Positions 3,045 to 37,587 of a stretch of DNA of 41,439 bases are shown here, in pieces. The DNA is from Acidobacteriota bacterium. Its GTDB lineage: Bacteria > Acidobacteriota > Thermoanaerobaculia > Thermoanaerobaculales > Sulfomarinibacteraceae. Numbering within the stretch: position 1 is the stretch's first letter; each line of letters begins with the position of its first letter. Both the position numbers and the translations under genes were made by a program. The notes beneath the pieces are model-generated. The model saw only the letters and a program-made list of their open reading frames with translations. It was not told the origin of the DNA and ran no database searches. The stretch spans positions 1-41,439 of the forward strand of contig JAJDNM010000042.1 of NCBI GenBank assembly GCA_022340665.1, read 5' to 3'.

Positions 3045-3126
3045 TGAATTCGGAATTCGGAATTCGTAGTTCGGAATTGGGAATGCCTCGAACCCGGCCG
3101 TTTCGGATTTGGGATTTCGGATTTTC
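3045..3126. repeat. Heptamer array (GAATTCG then GGATTTC units) between divergent genes
   Basis: About six 7-bp units based on GGAATTC run from 3045 to about 3088. After a short GC-rich spacer, three GGATTTC-type units follow (3101-3126). Base composition is much lower in GC than the flanking genes. The GAATTC unit is self-complementary. The array sits between the divergent icmF and hydroxyproline dehydratase genes, next to their likely promoters. Confidence 0.85.
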
Positions 3127-6540: not shown

Positions 6541-6705
6541 CGACAGCGGCGATTTGTGGCCGTAGCCGTGGGGATCGCAGGCTCAGCGGGAGCTGAGCCG
6601 GTGAGGAGGGTTGGGAGGCTTTACGGCCACTCGCCGATGGCGGGGAGTCACGACGCCCGAAGGGCGTCAGTAACCCAAAACTGAAAACTCAAAATTCAAA
6701 ATTCA
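6541..6705. repeat. Two-hairpin dispersed repeat (copy A) plus heptamer array
   Basis: A perfect 9-bp inverted repeat GTGGCCGTA/TACGGCCAC (6556-6564 and 6622-6630) encloses a second hairpin GGCTCA/TGAGCC. A third stem GACGCCC-GAA-GGGCGTC follows (6652-6668). Then come AAAACTC/AAAATTC heptamers to 6705, where the stop of the convergent small membrane gene lies inside the array. The same core recurs near 29300-29391, and a partial copy lies at 9541-9569. Confidence 0.85.
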
Positions 6706-7444: not shown

Positions 7445-7592
7445 AGATGCTGGATCCTGGATGCTCGATACTGGCTCCGTCCACCCCTCCCAGGCATGCA
7501 TCGGCGTCTGGGAATTGCATCGACCATCCGCCGTCCAGCATCCAACATCCAACATCTAGCATCCAGCATCCAGCATCCAGCATCCAGGATGG
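7445..7592. repeat. CATCCAG heptamer array in inverted arms
   Basis: The left arm (7445-7475) reads CTGGATG-type units. The right arm (about 7524-7592) reads CATCCAG/CATCCAA units, at least eight in register. The arms are reverse complements and could pair around a centre containing TCCCAGGC. The array lies between the divergent XRE and terC promoters. The plus-strand frame through it is open, which falsely extends terC at its 5' end. Confidence 0.88.
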
Positions 7593-7645: not shown

Positions 7646-8443
7646 ATGCTCGATTGGATGACCAGTCCCGAGGCTTGGGTCGCGCTGGCGACCTTGACGG
7701 CCCTCGAAATCGTCCTCGGTATCGACAACATCATCTTCATCTCGATCCTCTCGGGAAGGCTGCCAAAGGAACAGCGGGCGAGGGCGCGCACCGTCGGCCT
7801 GGCGGGCGCAATGGTCATGCGCATTGGCCTGCTGCTGTCGCTGGCGTGGGTTGCCCGACTGACCGTGGAGCTCTTCCCGGTCTTCGGCCACCCGTTCACG
7901 GCGCGCGATGCGGTACTGGTTGGTGGGGGCATATTCCTGCTCGGCAAGGCCACTTTCGAGATCCACCACAACCTCGAGGGTGAGGAGGAGGAACACGCGC
8001 GGAGCTCGAGCGCGTCTTTTGCCGGCACCATCGCCCAAATCATGGCCCTCGACATCGTCTTCTCTCTCGACTCGGTGATCACCGCGATCGGCATGGCTGA
8101 GCACGTGGCGGTGATGGTGGCAGCAGTGGTGATCGCCGTTCTGGTCATGATGATCGCCGCAGGCCCGATCTCCGATTTCGTCGAGGACCATCCGACGATC
8201 AAGATCCTGGCGCTTTCATTTCTGCTTCTGATCGGCATGTCGCTGGTCGCGGAGGGGCTCGGTCAACATATTCCCAAACCGCACATCTACTTCGCGATGG
8301 GCTTTTCGGTCTTTGTCGAGATGCTCAATCTTCGGATGCGCGGCCGAAGCTGGGAGGCGAAGCCGGTACGCCTACGCCATAGGATCGCCCCCCGCCGCCC
8401 GTCGCCGCTGCCGGCGAAAATGCGTATGATCGACGACGACTGA
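7646..8443 (+). CDS. TerC-family integral membrane protein
   Basis: A 265-residue protein with about seven hydrophobic helices. Paired acidic motifs GIDNIIF (residues 25-31) and LDIVFSLDSV are diagnostic of the TerC/YgdQ/Alx family. Members are linked to tellurite resistance, alkaline induction and, in several bacteria, Mn2+ efflux or metal loading of exported enzymes. The C-terminal ~25 residues are Arg/Pro-rich and cytoplasmic. ATG 7646 is chosen for the GGGGGAA upstream and the family N-terminus; upstream codons are repeat. A TAAGCT box at 7612-7617 may be the -10. The stop overlaps the pyrD start by one base. Confidence 0.9.
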   Translation: MLDWMTSPEAWVALATLTALEIVLGIDNIIFISILSGRLPKEQRARARTVGLAGAMVMRIGLLLSLAWVARLTVELFPVFGHPFTARDAVLVGGGIFLLGKATFEIHHNLEGEEEEHARSSSASFAGTIAQIMALDIVFSLDSVITAIGMAEHVAVMVAAVVIAVLVMMIAAGPISDFVEDHPTIKILALSFLLLIGMSLVAEGLGQHIPKPHIYFAMGFSVFVEMLNLRMRGRSWEAKPVRLRHRIAPRRPSPLPAKMRMIDDD

Positions 8444-9465
8444 TGGTTTATCCGTTCTTCCGCTCGCTGCTTTTCCACCTCGATCCCGAGGTCGCGCACT
8501 CGCTGTCGTTGGCGGCAATCGCCAAAATCGGCAGAGCGCCAGGGCTGCGCGAAACAATTACCTCGATCTACTCGGTGAAAACGGCAGAGCCGGTCGAAGC
8601 GTTCGGAATTCGATTCCCCAACCGGGTCGGCCTGGCCGCCGGATACGACAAAGACGGCGACGGCTGGCGCGGCCTGGCCTGCCTCGGTTTCGGTCACATC
8701 GAGGTCGGCACGGTGACGCCCGCACCGCAGCCGGGTAACCCGGAGCCGCGCGTGTTTCGCCTGATCGAGGAGCGATCGATCATCAACCGGATGGGCTTCC
8801 CCGGGCGGGGTGCCGACTACGTGGCTGCGCAGCTCCGCGGCAGGAGGCAGGGCGGGGCTGTGATCGGCGTCAATATCGGCAAGCAGAAGGCAACCGCACT
8901 CGAGGATGCGGCCGACGACTACGGGAGGTTGGTCGAGGTGTTCGCCCCGCTCGCGGACTACCTCGCGGTCAACATCTCTTCACCGAACACGCCCGGCCTG
9001 CGCAAGCTGCAGGAGGCGTCGTTTCTGGGGACTCTGCTCGGCAGGGTGGCGTCACGTCGCGACCGGACGGCCGACGCGATCGGCCGGCGGGTGCCTGTCC
9101 TTGTCAAGCTGGCGCCCGACCTCGACGACGAACAACTCACAACGGCGGTCGATGTGATCGCCGGGTCGGGCCTCGACGGGATTATCGCCACCAACACGAC
9201 CATCAGCCGTGAAGGCGTCGATCACGCCCTCGCCAAAGAGGAGGGCGGGCTGTCGGGCTCCGCCCTGACCGAGATGAGCACCCGTATCATCGCCCGCATC
9301 GCCGAACACACCGGCGGAGAGATCCCGATCGTGGGCGTCGGCGGCATCATGGGTCCCGGGGATGCGCGTGCCAAGCTCGAAGCCGGCGCGACCCTGGTCC
9401 AGCTCTACACAGGCCTGGTCTATGAAGGACCGGGTCTGGTCAAGAGAATTCTGAAGGAGCTCTGA
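8443..9465 (+). CDS. pyrD: Dihydroorotate dehydrogenase (quinone), class 2
   Basis: The 340-residue enzyme oxidises dihydroorotate to orotate in pyrimidine synthesis and passes electrons to membrane quinone through FMN. It has the class 2 N-terminal amphipathic helices (residues 1-25), RVGLAAGYDKDG for FMN and substrate, NRMGFPG, and the catalytic-serine segment NISSPNTPGL (Ser179/Ser180). Class 1 enzymes use Cys there. C-terminal FMN phosphate loops GVGGI and QLYTG are present. Translation is coupled to terC by a TGATG overlap. The heptamer hairpin starts 10 nt after the stop and could act as a terminator. Confidence 0.95.
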   Translation: MVYPFFRSLLFHLDPEVAHSLSLAAIAKIGRAPGLRETITSIYSVKTAEPVEAFGIRFPNRVGLAAGYDKDGDGWRGLACLGFGHIEVGTVTPAPQPGNPEPRVFRLIEERSIINRMGFPGRGADYVAAQLRGRRQGGAVIGVNIGKQKATALEDAADDYGRLVEVFAPLADYLAVNISSPNTPGLRKLQEASFLGTLLGRVASRRDRTADAIGRRVPVLVKLAPDLDDEQLTTAVDVIAGSGLDGIIATNTTISREGVDHALAKEEGGLSGSALTEMSTRIIARIAEHTGGEIPIVGVGGIMGPGDARAKLEAGATLVQLYTGLVYEGPGLVKRILKEL

Positions 9466-9475
9466 ATTCCAGGGC

Positions 9476-9597
9476 AAGTTTTGAGTTCTGAGTTTTGAGT
9501 GTTGAGTTTTCCCCCACCCGCCCGAAATAAGGTGGAGGGCGAGTCACGATGCCCGAAGGGCGTCAGTAACTCAAAACTCAAAACTCAAAACTCAACG
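9476..9597. repeat. Inverted heptamer arms (TTTTGAG / CTCAAAA) with central hairpin (element copy C)
   Basis: The left arm (9476-9510) holds about five TTTTGAG-type units, and the right arm (9568-9597) four CTCAAAA units. Between them lie CCCCCACCCGCCC and a partial copy of the two-hairpin element (GAGTCACGATGCCCGAAGGG at 9541-9560). The arms are complementary, so transcripts in either direction could fold. It separates the convergent ends of pyrD and the patatin gene. Confidence 0.88.
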
Positions 9598-9601
9598 CTC
9601 G

Positions 9602-10810
9602 TCACTGCACCCAGGGTGGCGGATCGCTTCTCCAGGACCCCGGCGCGAGAGCGAGTTCGCGGCCGAGATCGAACAGCCGCCTCATCTCGGCCGGATTGAA
9701 CGCGCTGACCGTCGCCTCGGAATGGGTATGCGGGATGCCAACGTAATTGAAGTCGATTCCGTGGCGCTCGGAGAGCGCCCAGATCCGCAACAGATCAGCC
9801 GTGGCGACCGATTTCAGGAGGGTGATCATCGATCGCGTGGCGATGTTGACCAGGTTGGGCCTGACCTGCTCGATCGAGGCGTCGATCTGACCGTTGCGAA
9901 TGACGTAGATCGATACCTCCGGGCGTTTGGTCTGGTCGACCTGGAGCTGTCGGGTGGCTTCAGCGATGTCGACCATCGCCCCCCAGAGAAAAAGCTCGGC
10001 CATGACCCCGCCGTCGACGTGCATCTCGTCGTACCGCTCCCCGTCGACCTCGACCTCGAAGTAGACCGGAGGGAAGGCGACCGGTATCGAGGATGATGCG
10101 AGAAGGACGCTGCGGAACAGTTCGAGGGAACCCGGGTGGCCGCTCGCAGCGATCGCCCCCATGTTCCAGACGACCAGCCGTTGGGTGTCGAGATTCGTGG
10201 TGGCGACGAAAAGGCGTCGTCCTTTGCTGTGTTCCTCGGCGATGGCAGCCAGCAGTTCCGCAGTGACGACTTCCTCGATCTTGCGGGCCAGCGGTTTGGT
10301 GGTGGCCAACGAGTCCTTCTTGAAGACTACGAGAGGGTTTCGGATCGTGTAGATATCCTTGTTGGTGACGTTGGTGAAAACCGTCTCGAGCTCGTCGTCG
10401 TAGTCGGGGCCGAGAAAGGCGTAGGGCGCCGTCAGGGCGCCGGTCGAGATTCCCGTCACCAGCTTGAAGACAGGTCGCGTGCCGCTTTCCGACCATCCGT
10501 TGAGGAAGCCGGCTCCGAACGCGCCGTTGGATCCACCTCCGGAAAGGACGAGCACATTCACGGGATGGTCACCCGTCACCGATGCCTCGGTCGCCCAACC
10601 ATCACGCACCGCCTGGACGAGGTCTTCCTGGAAATGACGGCTCGGCCGGTCGCTCCAGTCTCTGATGCCCGGCATCCCGGGAATGGTGGCACTGTCCATT
10701 TTGTCGATCGGAACCGGTTTGCGATGGACGCTCGAACACCCCGCCATGAGCAGGAGCACCATGGCCGCGAAGACCGGTTTCGTAACGCTCGACGAACTGG
10801 TGTTCAGCAC
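9602..10810 (-). CDS. Patatin-like phospholipase, lipoprotein
   Basis: A 402-residue acyl hydrolase with a lipoprotein signal: hydrophobic stretch, then LLLMAGC with Cys25 as the lipidation site. Patatin features are the oxyanion loop GGGSNGAFGAG, the nucleophile elbow GISTG and the DGG motif of the Ser-Asp dyad. It would act on phospholipids or other acyl esters from the outer membrane or periplasmic face. Start GTG 10810 keeps the basic Lys11 ahead of the hydrophobic core; a later ATG would leave too short a signal. No Shine-Dalgarno is seen, but TATCGT lies 9 nt upstream. Confidence 0.87.
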   Translation of the reverse strand: MLNTSSSSVTKPVFAAMVLLLMAGCSSVHRKPVPIDKMDSATIPGMPGIRDWSDRPSRHFQEDLVQAVRDGWATEASVTGDHPVNVLVLSGGGSNGAFGAGFLNGWSESGTRPVFKLVTGISTGALTAPYAFLGPDYDDELETVFTNVTNKDIYTIRNPLVVFKKDSLATTKPLARKIEEVVTAELLAAIAEEHSKGRRLFVATTNLDTQRLVVWNMGAIAASGHPGSLELFRSVLLASSSIPVAFPPVYFEVEVDGERYDEMHVDGGVMAELFLWGAMVDIAEATRQLQVDQTKRPEVSIYVIRNGQIDASIEQVRPNLVNIATRSMITLLKSVATADLLRIWALSERHGIDFNYVGIPHTHSEATVSAFNPAEMRRLFDLGRELALAPGSWRSDPPPWVQ

Positions 10811-12193: not shown

Positions 12194-14668
12194 TCAGCCC
12201 GGTTCCTTGACCTCGACCGCGCGGAGGTTCCACACCTTTTCCGCGTACTCGTGGATGGCGCGGTCGGATGAAAAGTAGCCCATTGCCGCGACGTTGCGAA
12301 TCGCCGCCGCCGCCCAAGCGCGCGGATTCTGGTAGAGCTCCGCGGCTTTCTCCTGGGCCTCGACGTAGGACCGGAAATCCGCCAGCACCATGTAGCGGTC
12401 GCCGTGCTCCATCAGCGACGACCAGATCTCTCGCAGAGGTTGTGCATCCGAGCCTGCATACACTCCGTCTCGCAGATCGTCGATGACGGCGGCCAGATCC
12501 GGATCCGACTCGTAGATCTTCCACGGACGATGGGCTCCGGTCGCGAGGCGGGTTTCCACCTCCTCGGCGGTGAGACCGAAGATGAAGATATTGTCGTCTC
12601 CGACCCGCTCCTTGATCTCGATGTTGGCGCCATCGAGAGTGCCCACGGTGAGGGCGCCGTTCAGGGCGAGCTTCATGTTGCCGGTGCCCGAGGCCTCCAT
12701 CCCGGCTGTCGAGATCTGCTCCGAAAGGTCCGCGGCGGGGATGATCTTCTCGGCCAGCGTGACCCGGTAGTCCGGCACGAAAGCGACGCGGATTCGCCCG
12801 TCCACCTCGCGGTCGTTGTTGACCACCTCGGCGACGCCGTTGATCAGGCGGATGATGAGCTTGGCCATGTAATAGGAGGGTGGCGCTTTGGCGCCGAAGA
12901 CGAAGCTCCGGGGCTGCATATCGCGTGTCGGATCCGCCTTGATCTGCCGGTGGAGGTGGATGACGTGCATGATGTTGAGAAGCTGCCGCTTGTACTCGTG
13001 TAGTCGCTTGATTTGGACGTCGTACATCGAGCTCGGATCGAGCCTGACGTTGCAGAGGTTGCGGATCGTCGAGGCCAGGTCCAGCTTGTTGGTGTGCTTG
13101 ATGGCCAGGAATTGATCCTGGAAGTCGTGGCTGTCCGCGTGGTGGCCGAGGTCCCGCAAACGGTCGAGATCACGAGGCCATTCGCTGCCGATGTGTTCGC
13201 TGATCGCTGTCGCAAGCCGCGGGTTGCATGCGAGCAGCCAGCGCCGAGGCGTCACGCCGTTGGTGATCGGCAGGAACTTCTCCGGCCAGAGGTCTGCGAA
13301 GTCCTTGACCACCCTCGTCCGCAGCAGTTCGGTGTGGAGCTTGGCAACTCCGTTGACTCTGTGGCTGCCAATGATGGCAAGGTTGGCCATGCTCAACTTC
13401 TTGTCGCTGCCCTCGTTCAGGATCGACATTCGGCGCATCGAGTCGGGTTTGTCGACGTAGATGCCCTTGACTGACTCCATGAAGCGCCGGTTGATCTCGT
13501 AGATGATCTGCAGGTGACGGGGAATGAGAGGTTCCATGAGCGAAACTGGCCAGGTCTCCAGGGCCTCTGGCAACAGCGTGTGGTTGGTGTACGAGCAGGT
13601 TGCTCTGGTGAGCTCCCAGGCAGGAGCCCAGCTGAGGCCTGCGTCGTCGAGCAGATAGCGCATCAGCTCGGCGACCGTCAGAGCGGGGTGTGTGTCGTTG
13701 AGCTGGAATGAAACCTTGTCCGGGAGCATCTCCCAGAGCTCGCCATGACGGTGGCGGAAGCGGTCCATCGCGTCGTACACCGAGCACGCCACCAGAAAGT
13801 ACTCCTGGGCCAAACGGAGGCTGCGTCCGGCCTCGATATCGTCGGCCGGATAAAGAACCCGGGTGACCGCCTCGACGCGTTCCCGCTCTGCCACGGCTCG
13901 AAGGTAGCCACCGCGAGAGAAGATGTGGAAGTCGAACTCCGACGCCGCGCGCGCGTCCCACAGTCTCAACACACCCGCAGTGTTGGTTCCGTAGCCGGCG
14001 ACCAGGACATCGAACGGAACACCGTAGGCCTCGCGCCACCCAGTCCAGGTGGGTCGGGGGCTCCCGCCTTCGCGATGGACCCACTCGATCCGACCGCCAA
14101 AGCGGACCGGCACCGTTCGGTCGTGACGCGCCACCTCCCACGGGTACCCCTCGTCGAGCCAGGTGTCCGCCTGCTCGACCTGCCAGCCGTTCTCGAAATT
14201 CTGGCGGAACATCCCGTAGTCGTAGCGCAGGCCATACCCGAAGGCCGGATAATCGAGGGTCGCCAGCGAGTCGAGAAAGCATGCCGCGAGGCGCCCGAGT
14301 CCTCCGTTGCCGAGGCCCGGATCGGTTTCCTCCTCGATGATGGTGTCGAGGTTGAGTCCGAGCATCTGCATCGCTTCGCGAGCCGTGTCGAGGAGCCCGA
14401 TGGCGATCAAATTGTTGAGCATCAGCCGACCGACCAGGTACTCCATCGAGAGATAGTGGACGACCTTTGGTTTCGCTTCGTCATATGTTCGACGGGTGAG
14501 GATCTCACGGTCGATGATCGACTCGCGCACTGCACGCCCGAGTGCCATCAGGTGGTCGGCGGGGCGCCCGTGACGCAGCTCGAGACCACAGGTGTAGCGG
14601 AGATAGTGGAGAAACCGGTCCTTGAACTCTTCGGCCGTCGGCTGCTTGATTTTGACTTCCGGGAGCAT
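12194..14668 (-). CDS. glgP: Glycogen/starch/alpha-glucan phosphorylase
   Basis: An 824-residue PLP enzyme that releases glucose-1-phosphate from alpha-1,4-glucans. Length and order match the glycogen phosphorylase family: YLSMEYLVGR near the N-terminus, GLGRLAACF, and the PLP region EASGTGNMKLALNGA with the Schiff-base Lys at about residue 666. An N-terminal RILTRRTYDEAK-type region replaces the animal phosphorylation site, so covalent regulation of that type is not expected. The ATG has a strong AAGGAGG site. It is divergent from malQ, with TAAATT (14690-14695, preceded by TGC) a likely extended -10. Confidence 0.96.
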   Translation of the reverse strand: MLPEVKIKQPTAEEFKDRFLHYLRYTCGLELRHGRPADHLMALGRAVRESIIDREILTRRTYDEAKPKVVHYLSMEYLVGRLMLNNLIAIGLLDTAREAMQMLGLNLDTIIEEETDPGLGNGGLGRLAACFLDSLATLDYPAFGYGLRYDYGMFRQNFENGWQVEQADTWLDEGYPWEVARHDRTVPVRFGGRIEWVHREGGSPRPTWTGWREAYGVPFDVLVAGYGTNTAGVLRLWDARAASEFDFHIFSRGGYLRAVAERERVEAVTRVLYPADDIEAGRSLRLAQEYFLVACSVYDAMDRFRHRHGELWEMLPDKVSFQLNDTHPALTVAELMRYLLDDAGLSWAPAWELTRATCSYTNHTLLPEALETWPVSLMEPLIPRHLQIIYEINRRFMESVKGIYVDKPDSMRRMSILNEGSDKKLSMANLAIIGSHRVNGVAKLHTELLRTRVVKDFADLWPEKFLPITNGVTPRRWLLACNPRLATAISEHIGSEWPRDLDRLRDLGHHADSHDFQDQFLAIKHTNKLDLASTIRNLCNVRLDPSSMYDVQIKRLHEYKRQLLNIMHVIHLHRQIKADPTRDMQPRSFVFGAKAPPSYYMAKLIIRLINGVAEVVNNDREVDGRIRVAFVPDYRVTLAEKIIPAADLSEQISTAGMEASGTGNMKLALNGALTVGTLDGANIEIKERVGDDNIFIFGLTAEEVETRLATGAHRPWKIYESDPDLAAVIDDLRDGVYAGSDAQPLREIWSSLMEHGDRYMVLADFRSYVEAQEKAAELYQNPRAWAAAAIRNVAAMGYFSSDRAIHEYAEKVWNLRAVEVKEPG

Positions 14669-14707
14669 GAGCCTCCTTCAAGACGTGGAAATTTAGCACA
14701 GAGGTCG

Positions 14708-14866
14708 CATTTCGAATTTCGAATTTCGAAATTGGAATTTCCCGCCCACCCACCCGGACAACAGCAATTCAAACCCAGAACATCTGATCTCATTTACACT
14801 TCCATCCGGACCGACGATCGGACAGAGAGGAAAAATTCGAAATCCGAAATCCGAAATTCGAAATAT
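14708..14866. repeat. TTCGAAA heptamer arms between glgP and malQ
   Basis: The left arm (14708-14741) has four to five ATTTCGA units. The right arm (14831-14866) has about five AATTCGA/AATCCGA units in the complementary sense. The centre contains CCCGCCCACCCACCC. The array fills the divergent glgP/malQ promoter region and nearly reaches the start of malQ. Confidence 0.87.
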
Positions 14867-19230: not shown

Positions 19231-19270
19231 CGTTCCACGTTGAAACGTTCAACGTTCAACGTCCAAACGG
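19231..19270. repeat. ACGTTCA heptamer array
   Basis: Five to six 7-bp units based on ACGTTCA, partly self-complementary (AACGTT). They lie between the convergent stops of the metzincin gene and the aldehyde oxidoreductase operon and start directly at the TAA of the former. Confidence 0.8.
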
Positions 19271-24065: not shown

Positions 24066-24134
24066 TAGTAGTGAGTTTTGAGTTTTAAGTTTTGAGTTTT
24101 AAGTTTTGAGTTTTGAGTTTTGAGTTTTGAGTTG
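24066..24134. repeat. GAGTTTT heptamer array, single orientation
   Basis: About nine to ten GAGTTTT/AAGTTTT units in perfect 7-bp register, ending in CCGCCCAACCACCCC. The array begins 3 nt after the DUF4213 stop and runs into the first codons assigned to the MocA-like gene. It has only one arm; no complementary arm lies nearby. Confidence 0.92.
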
Positions 24135-24753
24135 CCGCCCAACCACCCCGGGTCCTCGTGACGAACGAACGCCGCGTCTGGCGGGACTGATCTTGGCGGG
24201 GGGGGAGGGGAAGAGATGGGGTGGGCCGAAAGCGTGGGCCAGGCTTCCCGACGGCTCGACATTCCTGGAGGCGTGTGCAGCTTCGCTGAGAAACGCAGGG
24301 GCTTTTCCGGTGGTGGCGACACTCCCGCCGGGCACGGACGACCCTGGGATCGACGGGCTCGAGGCCTTGGCCCTGCCCGAGCCCGGGATGGACATGTTCG
24401 GCTCGTTGCGCACGGGCCTCTCGCGCCTGATCCTAAATCCCGGGTGGCGGAGGGTTGCCGTGCTGCCGGTCGACCACCCGCTGGTGGACCCGACGACGGT
24501 CAAAGCCCTGGTGGCATCGAATGAGCGGGCCGTGATCCCGTCGTACAAAGGGAAGCACGGGCACCCGATCTGCCTGGAACGCGCGATTGCCTCGGCCATC
24601 GCCGGCGGTGAGTTTGGCGGGCCGACCCTGCGCGAGGTTCTTCGCGAGGTCGGAGCCGTCGGAGTGGACGTGAGCGATCGGGGCGTTGTCGCCAACTGCA
24701 ACACGCCCGCTGCTCTGAGCGAGGCGCTCAGAGCAGCGAATTCGGAATTCTGA
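24127..24753 (+). CDS. Molybdenum cofactor nucleotidyltransferase-like protein (MocA/MobA family)
   Basis: An approximately 208-residue GT-A-fold NTP transferase: LAGLILAGGEGKRWGGPKAW at the N-terminus, and LPVDHPLVDP where MocA/MobA bind metal and nucleotide. MocA would attach CMP to molybdopterin, giving the MCD cofactor that PaoABC-type enzymes need, so the neighbourhood supports MocA over MobA. The start is unclear: no ATG or GTG is in frame, and TTG 24127 lies inside the heptamer array. The C-terminal ANSEF and the TGA stop are encoded by the next array, so both gene ends appear remodelled by repeats. Confidence 0.78.
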   Translation: MSCRPTTPGPRDERTPRLAGLILAGGEGKRWGGPKAWARLPDGSTFLEACAASLRNAGAFPVVATLPPGTDDPGIDGLEALALPEPGMDMFGSLRTGLSRLILNPGWRRVAVLPVDHPLVDPTTVKALVASNERAVIPSYKGKHGHPICLERAIASAIAGGEFGGPTLREVLREVGAVGVDVSDRGVVANCNTPAALSEALRAANSEF

Positions 24754-24848
24754 GTTCGGAATTCGGAAATTCCCCCGCACCCACGGAGGACTGGGAGTGC
24801 GGGTAGGAATTCAAAATTCAAAATTCAAAATTGAGAATTCAAAATTCG
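24738..24848. repeat. Inverted heptamer arms (AATTCGG / AATTCAA) overlapping two gene ends
   Basis: The left arm (24738-24772) has AATTCGG units and the right arm (24807-24848) has AATTCAA units, around CCCCCGCACCCAC and GGGAGTGCGGG, which can pair. The left arm contains the stop of the MocA-like gene, and the right arm contains the stop of the convergent reductase gene. Confidence 0.88.
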
Positions 24849-26240: not shown

Positions 26241-26350
26241 TAGTTTTGAGTTTTGAGGTATGAGTTTTGAGTTTCCACGCATCACTCCCGTTTTTCCAAG
26301 GGTGAGGAAGGGGCAACTCAAAACTCAAAACTCAAAAGTGAGAACTCAAG
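26241..26350. repeat. Inverted heptamer arms (TTTTGAG / CTCAAAA)
   Basis: Left arm 26241-26275 of TTTTGAG units, right arm 26313-26350 of CTCAAAA units, with a centre that includes CTCCCG and a GTGAGGAAGGGG segment. It lies upstream of gor and downstream of yceI, both on the minus strand. Confidence 0.88.
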
Positions 26351-28784: not shown

Positions 28785-29209
28785 TGCGTCTCGCCCCCCT
28801 TCGCGGACGGCGCAAGCCCGAGGTCCAGATGTCGCCACTGATCGACGTCATCTTCCTGCTGTTGATCTTCTATGCGGTGACCACACAGTTCGTCAGTGAC
28901 GAAAGGCTCAAGCTCAAGCTGCCCGAAGCCGAGACCGCCGAGAGTGTCGGCATCAATCGCGAGGAACGCCCGCCCGAAGTCAAGGTGGCGGTCGACGGGA
29001 CGATCTGGATCAACGATCGAATCGTGCCGGAATCGGACCTCGAATCACGGATACGGCAGCTGGTCGAACGCGCTCCGGACGAGGGCATTATTCTGAAGGG
29101 CGATCAGGGAGCCGATTACGGCATCGTCGTCCACGTCCTCGATGTCGCCCGCAAGGTCGGCGCCAAAGGAATTCAGATGAGCGCGGACCGACCACCCGAG
29201 CAGCAATAA
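28784..29209 (+). CDS. exbD: ExbD/TolR family protein
   Basis: A 141-residue partner of ExbB: short basic cytoplasmic tail, then SPLIDVIFLLLIFYA, whose membrane-embedded Asp is the proton-carrying residue of the family, and a periplasmic domain ending in a GIQM-type strand. Translation is coupled to exbB. A heptamer array begins immediately at the TAA stop. Confidence 0.93.
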   Translation: MRLAPLRGRRKPEVQMSPLIDVIFLLLIFYAVTTQFVSDERLKLKLPEAETAESVGINREERPPEVKVAVDGTIWINDRIVPESDLESRIRQLVERAPDEGIILKGDQGADYGIVVHVLDVARKVGAKGIQMSADRPPEQQ

Positions 29210-29427
29210 TTTTGAATTCTCAATTTTGAATTTAGAATTCCCATCGCCCACCCCCGTGCTCTGGGAGGTTGGGCGGCAACTCTCCGACAACAGCGCACCG
29301 TGGCCGTAGCTGAGGGGGTCGCCTCGAGGGCGCGTGGAAAGCGTACGGCCACGCGCTGATGGCGGCGAGTCACGACGCCCGCAGAGCGTCAGTAATTCAA
29401 AATTGAGAATTCAAAATTGAAAATTCG
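29208..29427. repeat. Inverted heptamer arms enclosing the two-hairpin element (copy B)
   Basis: Left arm 29208-29240 (TTTTGAA/TTCTCAA units) and right arm 29393-29427 (TTCAAAA units) flank the element: GTGGCCGTA/TACGGCCAC at 29300-29308 and 29344-29352, then GACGCCC with GCGTC at 29374-29390 and AGTAA. The 3' half matches copy A almost base for base. The stop of the convergent ATPase gene lies in the right arm. Confidence 0.88.
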
Positions 29428-32093: not shown

Positions 32094-32305
32094 AATGAGG
32101 AATTAGAAATGAGGAATCCCGTCCGCCCCCTCGGACCACCGAGGGGGATGATGTGGAACTCAAAACTCAAAACTCAAGAATCAAAACTCAAGACTCAAAA
32201 CTCAAGACTCAAAACTCAAAACTCAAAACTCAAAACTCAAAACTCAAAACTGCCTTGGGGGGGGTAGGCGGGAAGTCCGAAATTCGAAATTCGAAATTCG
32301 AAATC
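32094..32305. repeat. Longest heptamer array (about 13 CTCAAAA units) plus TTCGAAA array and hairpin
   Basis: A GAGGAAT/GAAATGA stretch (32094-32118) is followed by a perfect CCCCCTCGG-ACCA-CCGAGGGGG hairpin (32126-32147). Then come about 13 CTCAAAA-type units with a few point variants (32157-32251), a G-run with GGCGGG, and four TTCGAAA units (32276-32304). The region lies between the start of the DUF3592 operon and the end of the CadC-like gene. Confidence 0.92.
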
Positions 32306-32721: not shown

Positions 32722-32935
32722 GCGGCATCCGGCTTCGTCCGCCGGACGATGCCGGGACGCGAAGGGTTCAGCCAGCCCCGAAGGGGCGAGAGATGCTTAG
32801 CCTGGGGCGTCAGCCCCAGGGTCGTCATGAAAAAATGGGAACAGCCCCCGAAGGGGGCGGCCGATTCCCATCTGCGGTGTGAGCCGCAGACATTTCGTTG
32901 GAGTTATTCTGTCGCCGCTCCGCGGCTCTTGCCTC
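32722..32935. repeat. Cluster of five GC-rich hairpins (REP-like)
   Basis: In order: GGCATC/GATGCC, GCCCC-GAA-GGGGC, CCTGGGGC-GTCA-GCCCCAGG (32801-32820), a nested pair ATGGGAA/TTCCCAT around GCCCCC-GAA-GGGGGC (about 32835-32870), and CTGCGG/CCGCAG (32872-32889). The AGCCCCGAAGGGGCG and CCTGGGGC pieces resemble dispersed intergenic palindromes I have seen in Planctomycetes- and Acidobacteria-type genomes. No gene is present. It lies between the cadC-like promoter and the 3' end of the thiolase operon. Confidence 0.75.
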
Positions 32936-37506: not shown

Positions 37507-37587
37507 GGAATTCGGAATGAGGAATTAGGAATTCGGAATGCCGCCCACTTACCGATTTCGGATTTCGGATTTCGGATTTCGGATTTC
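37505..37587. repeat. GAATTCG/GAGGAAT and GGATTTC heptamer arrays
   Basis: The left part (37505-37540) has GGAATTC/GGAATGA units and the right part (37552-37587) has five GGATTTC units, separated by GCCGCCCACTTACC and followed by CCCACCC. The composition, order and C-rich spacer closely mirror the array at 3045-3126, 34 kb away. Confidence 0.9.

Follow-up and report, generated by a model that had tools for sequence, protein, structure and literature searches.

The window analysed here, a 41,439-nt stretch of DNA, is contig C42 of a draft genome of 3.95 Mb. Two convergent genes enclose the element under study at positions 9476-9597: a dihydroorotate dehydrogenase gene on the + strand (8443-9465), whose closest named relatives are from Thermoanaerobaculales MAGs of the Acidobacteriota (80% amino-acid identity), and a patatin-like gene on the - strand (9602-10762). 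The left arm (9477-9510), an (AGTTTTG)n array of ~4.9 copies, begins 12 nt past the dihydroorotate dehydrogenase stop codon, and the right arm (9568-9595), (AACTCAA)4 with 4.0 exact copies, ends 7 nt short of the stop codon of the patatin-like gene. The 57-nt core between them (9511-9567) contains the C-rich run CCCCCACCCGCCC with a G-rich return strand, and also another hairpin, GATGCCCGAAGGGCGTC, which belongs to a small core family with 13 copies.

A sequence-only reading of this DNA had described TTTTGAG units facing CTCAAAA units at this site, in arms able to fold as a long hairpin, and both statements were borne out. With convergent genes on either side, (TTTTGAG)n lies opposite (CTCAAAA)n, and the arms match at 0.92 as inverted versus 0.33 as direct repeats. 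Folding of 9476-9597 as RNA yielded -55.6 kcal/mol on the + strand (z -8.15) and -58.8 kcal/mol on the - strand (z -7.99), and either RNA strand is predicted to form a single long hairpin. Hairpins of GTGGCCG...CGGCCAC and GAGTCACGACGCCCGAAGGGCGTCAGTAAC are also contained in a repeat, up to 130 nt long, that was observed at 6545-6674, 9533-9570 and 29344-29395. The end of this repeat is present in 13 copies in the genome, and genome G001 has sequences that resemble it by eye.

Heptamer arrays in the window and the genome

Gene calls came from a home-made caller, with a second gene call for comparison, and genome-level counts were taken from 423 kb of Thermoanaerobaculales genome and from pattern counts. 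A scan of the window at lags 2 to 24 found 16 arrays at lag 7, and otherwise only arrays at multiples of 7 and one at lag 12. The same scan of the 423 kb returned 108 lag-7 arrays against 0-5 for each lag not divisible by 7, which excludes chance; the sample had been picked in part for AACTCAA arrays, so that densities are biased upward while the specificity of the period is unaffected. The units in the 423 kb differ between loci and include AAAACTC, AATTAGG, AATTCCG, AGCATCC, AAATCCG and AAATTCG.

The window holds further inverted elements in gaps of each orientation. The element at 7446-7590 (left GATGCTG, right GCATCCA) sits in a divergent gap with a TerC-family gene downstream of it, and that at 14705-14864 (TTTCGAA, TTCGAAA) lies between the divergent genes for glycogen phosphorylase and 4-alpha-glucanotransferase. 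A tandem gap contains the element at 26242-26337 (AGTTTTG, AACTCAA), and convergent genes flank the one at 29208-29425, with AATTTTG/AATTCTC on the left and AATTCAA/AATTGAG on the right. The sequence-only reading had named these four sites and 9476 as inverted, correctly in each case. It had also named 24738, where the element between convergent genes at 24738-24847 (GAATTCG, AATTCAA) is only loosely inverted, at 0.74 inverted versus 0.71 direct.

Three array pairs have the same polarity and are not inverted: 3046-3124 (GAATTCG and TTTCGGA, arrays at 3046 and 3101), 32157-32304 (AACTCAA, ~13.6 copies, and CGAAATT, arrays at 32157 and 32278) and 37507-37587 (GGAATTC/GGAATGA and GATTTCG, arrays at 37507 and 37554). 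Single arrays were found at 6677-6705 (right type, 3′ of the 130-nt GTGGCC...GAGTCACG repeat), at 19244-19266 (AACGTTC, with convergent genes on either side) and at 24072-24133, where a left-type (TGAGTTT)n array followed by a C-rich run comes directly past a stop codon. At gathering score Rfam had no match at the elements; its sole match was an Acido-Lenti-1 RNA outside them, at 32774-32820 on the - strand (47.6 bits, gathering 37), among small genes near the 32157-32304 arrays.

The usual element consists of a [GAnnnnn]n array, a C-rich run (e.g. CCCRCCCACCC), a short loop, a G-rich run (e.g. GGGTGGGYGGG) and the inverse array. Its core has a median length of 42 nt, with 58% C in the first 14 nt and 55% G in the last 14 nt, and G3 tracts sit in the core and are absent from the heptamer units. 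Of the left arrays that adjoin the C-rich run, 71% have GA recurring in a fixed phase; of the right arrays that adjoin the G-rich run, 74% have TC. The cores are mostly non-homologous between elements, with the exception of two small dispersed families. One of these, CTTGACA..CAG..CGATT..GTTGA, lies inside elements at L035:3250, L036:8862, L044:14079, L040:15637 and L032:14043 and also at loci L266 and L268 of G001 (nhmmer E 2e-5 to 8e-9), with arms of GATGCTG in the studied genome and of the CAGGTCT type in G001. The TTGACA end of this family resembles a promoter.

Matching of the two arms

We compared neighbouring arrays as pairs throughout the 423 kb, where the inverted match beat the direct match in 54 of 66 pairs and the direct beat the inverted in 11. 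Mean inverted identity was 0.757 between true partners versus 0.617 when arms were permuted among the 66 pairs (sd 0.017, z 8.4), and the two arms had an identical consensus unit in 17 of the 66 pairs versus 4.9 expected. The effect persists once the commonest unit is removed, and with the permutation this rules out chance inverted matching of AT-rich arrays. Regional similarity was likewise ruled out as the source of the match, since arms taken from neighbouring elements within 8 kb had an inverted identity of 0.615, no better than random. In folding, swapping an arm for that of another element cost 6.5 kcal/mol on average (p 4e-7).

The sequence-only reading had further supposed that the arms are complementary in register, and this was not upheld. 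None of the in-phase shifts of the paired arms was preferred, shuffling the order of units in one arm did not weaken the fold (shuffled arms were slightly more stable, by 0.6 kcal/mol), and arm lengths within elements were uncorrelated (rho -0.10). A mirrored unit order and strict base-by-base compensation were tried as candidates with the in-phase shifts and the unit-order shuffle and left no sign. Because there is neither a preferred register nor a correlation of arm length, neither recent perfect copying nor compensatory selection at the level of bases is visible. Co-variation of the arms holds for unit type and goes beyond regional similarity, but base-by-base compensation was not seen.

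Position between genes and in related genomes

Elements are concentrated in convergent gaps and directly after stop codons. Elements occupied 22 of 32 convergent gaps, 44 of 139 tandem gaps and 12 of 45 divergent gaps, and the second gene call gave 23/39, 44/134 and 10/38, respectively, with similar values in congeners. The median distance from element to stop codon was 6.5 nt between convergent genes and 9 nt between tandem genes, and the downstream start codon was 61.5 nt away. Bidirectional termination, which had been suggested for such sites, fits this placement, and a putative terminator function is plausible. From position, the elements may act in bidirectional 3′-end formation or in protection of mRNA 3′ ends.

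Canonical intrinsic terminators were rejected as an identity for the elements. U-tail matches in the window were at the level of shuffled sequence, and U-tract terminators were found at 2.8% of 3′ ends. None of the 66 right arms had five or more T in its first 8 nt; the elements do have a strong stem, but its 3′ side is rich in A where an intrinsic terminator would be rich in U. Divergent gaps keep their elements in place as well (10/10), which a role as terminator alone does not explain.

We counted a left-arm-plus-CC pattern, and its reversal as control, in 149 genomes of the class. The studied genome had 73 matches and four congeners had 14 to 53, and the pattern was rare in the other genomes; the control gave 0-1 matches. 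An assembly artefact was ruled out, as the elements recur across several independent genomes of the genus. Where the studied genome has an array, 36 of 46 orthologous gaps in the four congeners have one too, versus 4 of 27 where it has none (p 1.3e-7), and the flanking genes are ~65-88% identical between species that share element positions.

The units at these conserved positions change. Heptamer arrays are present in three congeners in the 5′-5′ gap between glycogen phosphorylase and 4-alpha-glucanotransferase (14668-14864); in two of these congeners the units have changed. The site orthologous to 24738-24847 has ATTCCTA or AAATCCG in G004 and G003. At L048:12156 the left and right arms are GGAATTA and ATTCCTA in the studied genome, with a GGAATTA type in G004 as well; they are CAATTCT and AATTGAG in G001 and AATTTTG and AATTCAA in G003. 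Nor is the period absolutely fixed: in G004 the gap of the 19244-19266 array (window 19229) has octamer inverted arms, GAAGTTAG and CTAACTTC, at locus L227, and the gap orthologous to L044:2798 has hexamer inverted arms at L294.

At 13 sites, the only ones in the cross-species test, an arm matched its own inverted partner at 0.775 versus 0.668 for the orthologous partner (p 0.017), and it matched its own orthologous arm at 0.66-0.70. Position and inverted shape are thus kept while the unit is often replaced in both arms, which suggests that shape is preserved and not sequence. The sequence-only reading had also held that tandem expansion alone cannot produce such arms, and we agree: arms that are alike within an element yet unlike between loci and species need copying between the arms or selection for pairing.

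Explanations and known repeats

The conserved position, the inverted shape and the replaced sequence together lead us to a reading in which the arrays are arms of intergenic hairpins selected for their shape at fixed places, mostly gene 3′ ends, with the arms copied from each other and expanded by slippage. We give this a probability of about one half. A GC core hairpin of C-rich run, short loop and G-rich run would be lengthened on both sides by heptamer arrays, and the unit type would pass from arm to arm by template switching within the quasipalindrome during DNA replication, a process reported to make and mend hairpin stems (PMC8794818). The arms would then lengthen and shorten independently by slippage, which fits the absence of any correlation in register, order or length. 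Selection would retain the elements that give a long RNA stem past the stop codon, as a bidirectional 3′ end, a termination signal or a structure that protects mRNA, in a genus with hardly any detectable U-tract intrinsic terminators. Points against this reading are the lack of a preferred register and of a correlation of arm length, the slightly greater stability of shuffled unit order, the 11 pairs with the better direct match, the conserved elements in divergent gaps, the A-rich 3′ side and the small cross-species set of 13 sites; it also leaves the period of seven without an account.

Mutational and mobile-element origins are weaker but live rivals to selection for shape. Palindromes could simply be hotspots of slippage and template switching, with functionless arrays that come and go at tolerant intergenic sites. 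The freedom of unit type, the uncorrelated lengths, the irrelevance of unit order and the presence of elements in divergent gaps all agree with such an origin, as does the reported over-representation of heptamers across many bacterial genomes (PMC4692102). The strong bias toward 3′ ends and convergent gaps and the conservation of position alongside unit turnover argue against it; part of that bias and conservation could be accounted for if arrays were seeded by a GC core hairpin already present at a conserved site, and overall we regard a purely mutational origin as doubtful. It is unlikely that the elements are selfish or mobile palindromes, similar to REPINs or MITEs, whose matched arm pairs are spread by an enzyme, for instance a Y1 transposase of the RAYT type. 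In favour, the elements are numerous intergenic palindromes, the genome (5 hits) and its relatives encode Y1 transposase domains, and the two small core families (13 copies, and the TTGACA core) are dispersed. However, cores are mostly unrelated, so that the elements are not copies of each other, and a single mobile element copied everywhere is ruled out on this ground. In element-rich G001, which is only 65% complete, no Y1 transposase was found, and such transposases occur in genomes without these elements; the Y1 domains did not correlate with the elements. Positions are also conserved across species with flanks that are ~65-88% identical, and there is no clean presence or absence.

Quite improbable, in our judgment, is that GA (TC in the other arm) every seven bases is read by a repeat-reading protein, so that the arrays bind protein or RNA and the hairpin is secondary. 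The fixed phase of GA in 71% of left arrays and of TC in 74% of right arrays would suit such a protein, and the TAACTGA repeats of Beggiatoaceae have been proposed as binding sites (PMC4679880), but some units outside the genus retain the period of seven without a GA skeleton (CGGTTAA in G061), and the matching of variable positions between arms would be unexplained.

Within the papers it covered, our literature search found no account of such elements in Thermoanaerobaculia. REP, BIME and REPIN palindromes have a conserved sequence and a RAYT transposase. The studied elements resemble them as abundant extragenic palindromes (PMC3116915) but are free in sequence, and with mostly non-homologous cores their copies have no conserved REP core in common. 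The nearest precedents are the intergenic period-7 arrays of Xanthomonas, GGGAATC or (GGGANTN)n, and of Nostoc, GGGGA(C/T)T (PMC4692102). Their mean distance is 28 nt to the ORF on the 5′ side versus 160 nt to the downstream ORF, two nearby sites are inverted relative to each other in 70 cases among the 186 repeats of X. campestris, and long heptamer repeats are not at shared genes in two species (PMC4692102). Intergenic arrays of period 7, often in inverted pairs and close to where the upstream ORF ends, are thus shared with our elements and already known, from Xanthomonas, for a single G-rich unit (PMC4692102). That unit forms G-quadruplexes, whereas the studied genome has many AT-rich unit families (AAAACTC, AATTAGG, AATTCCG, AGCATCC and similar), in which we found no G-tract unit of the GGGANTN type. 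New in comparison are this diversity of units within one genome, the element-by-element matching of arms, the separate core of C-rich and G-rich runs and the conservation of position despite unit replacement.

Other known repeats are more distant. The TAACTGA repeats of marine Beggiatoaceae, Cyanobacteria and Bacteroidetes are likewise numerous intergenic heptamer arrays within one genome (169 sets), but they have one fixed unit, are direct with a single indirect case, and lie mostly just upstream of start codons (PMC4679880); the studied elements have different units, are inverted and lie near stop codons. Geobacter metallireducens has dispersed short heptamer arrays, with four heptamers of consensus GGACCGG in 49 copies and class 3 sites of five MTYCTGA, and some putative regulator sites there are paired; unit number and sequence are fixed, and a regulatory role is proposed (PMC2700814). 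Homogenisation of quasipalindromes by template switching makes and repairs matched inverted arms, as we infer for the studied elements, but it is known from short stems in RNA genes and not from tandem arrays across a genome (PMC8794818).

We tentatively raise a broader possibility, that this bacterial group ends many genes with sequence-free "modular hairpins", in which a near-arbitrary unit in a long inverted stem of period seven is swapped in both arms together and the shape is inherited by arm-to-arm copying, and that other families of the class, and Chloroflexota too, have the same design. If so, function would be inherited as shape and the unit would be nearly arbitrary; heptamer over-representation in many bacteria had been noted without an explanation. 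With position conserved, arms co-varying and sequence turning over, it becomes testable how RNA stems stay paired during sequence replacement and how transcripts are ended in genomes that have almost no U-tract terminators, and the set of species offers many natural replicates at orthologous sites.

Other lineages of the class have other heptamers, often inverted too, such as GATTTTG and CGGTTAA in G061 and AGTTGCG in G038. Chloroflexota contigs (L086, L101, L122, L125 and L082) likewise have inverted heptamer arrays near gene ends, with units that are unrelated (GGAGATT, CGTGATG, ATCGGTA), which suggests that the design is widespread. At L265:14048-14350 of G038, an AGTTTCG-type array and tgtccgcgcccccatccat are repeated five-fold, so that array and C-rich run together form a tandem of higher order.
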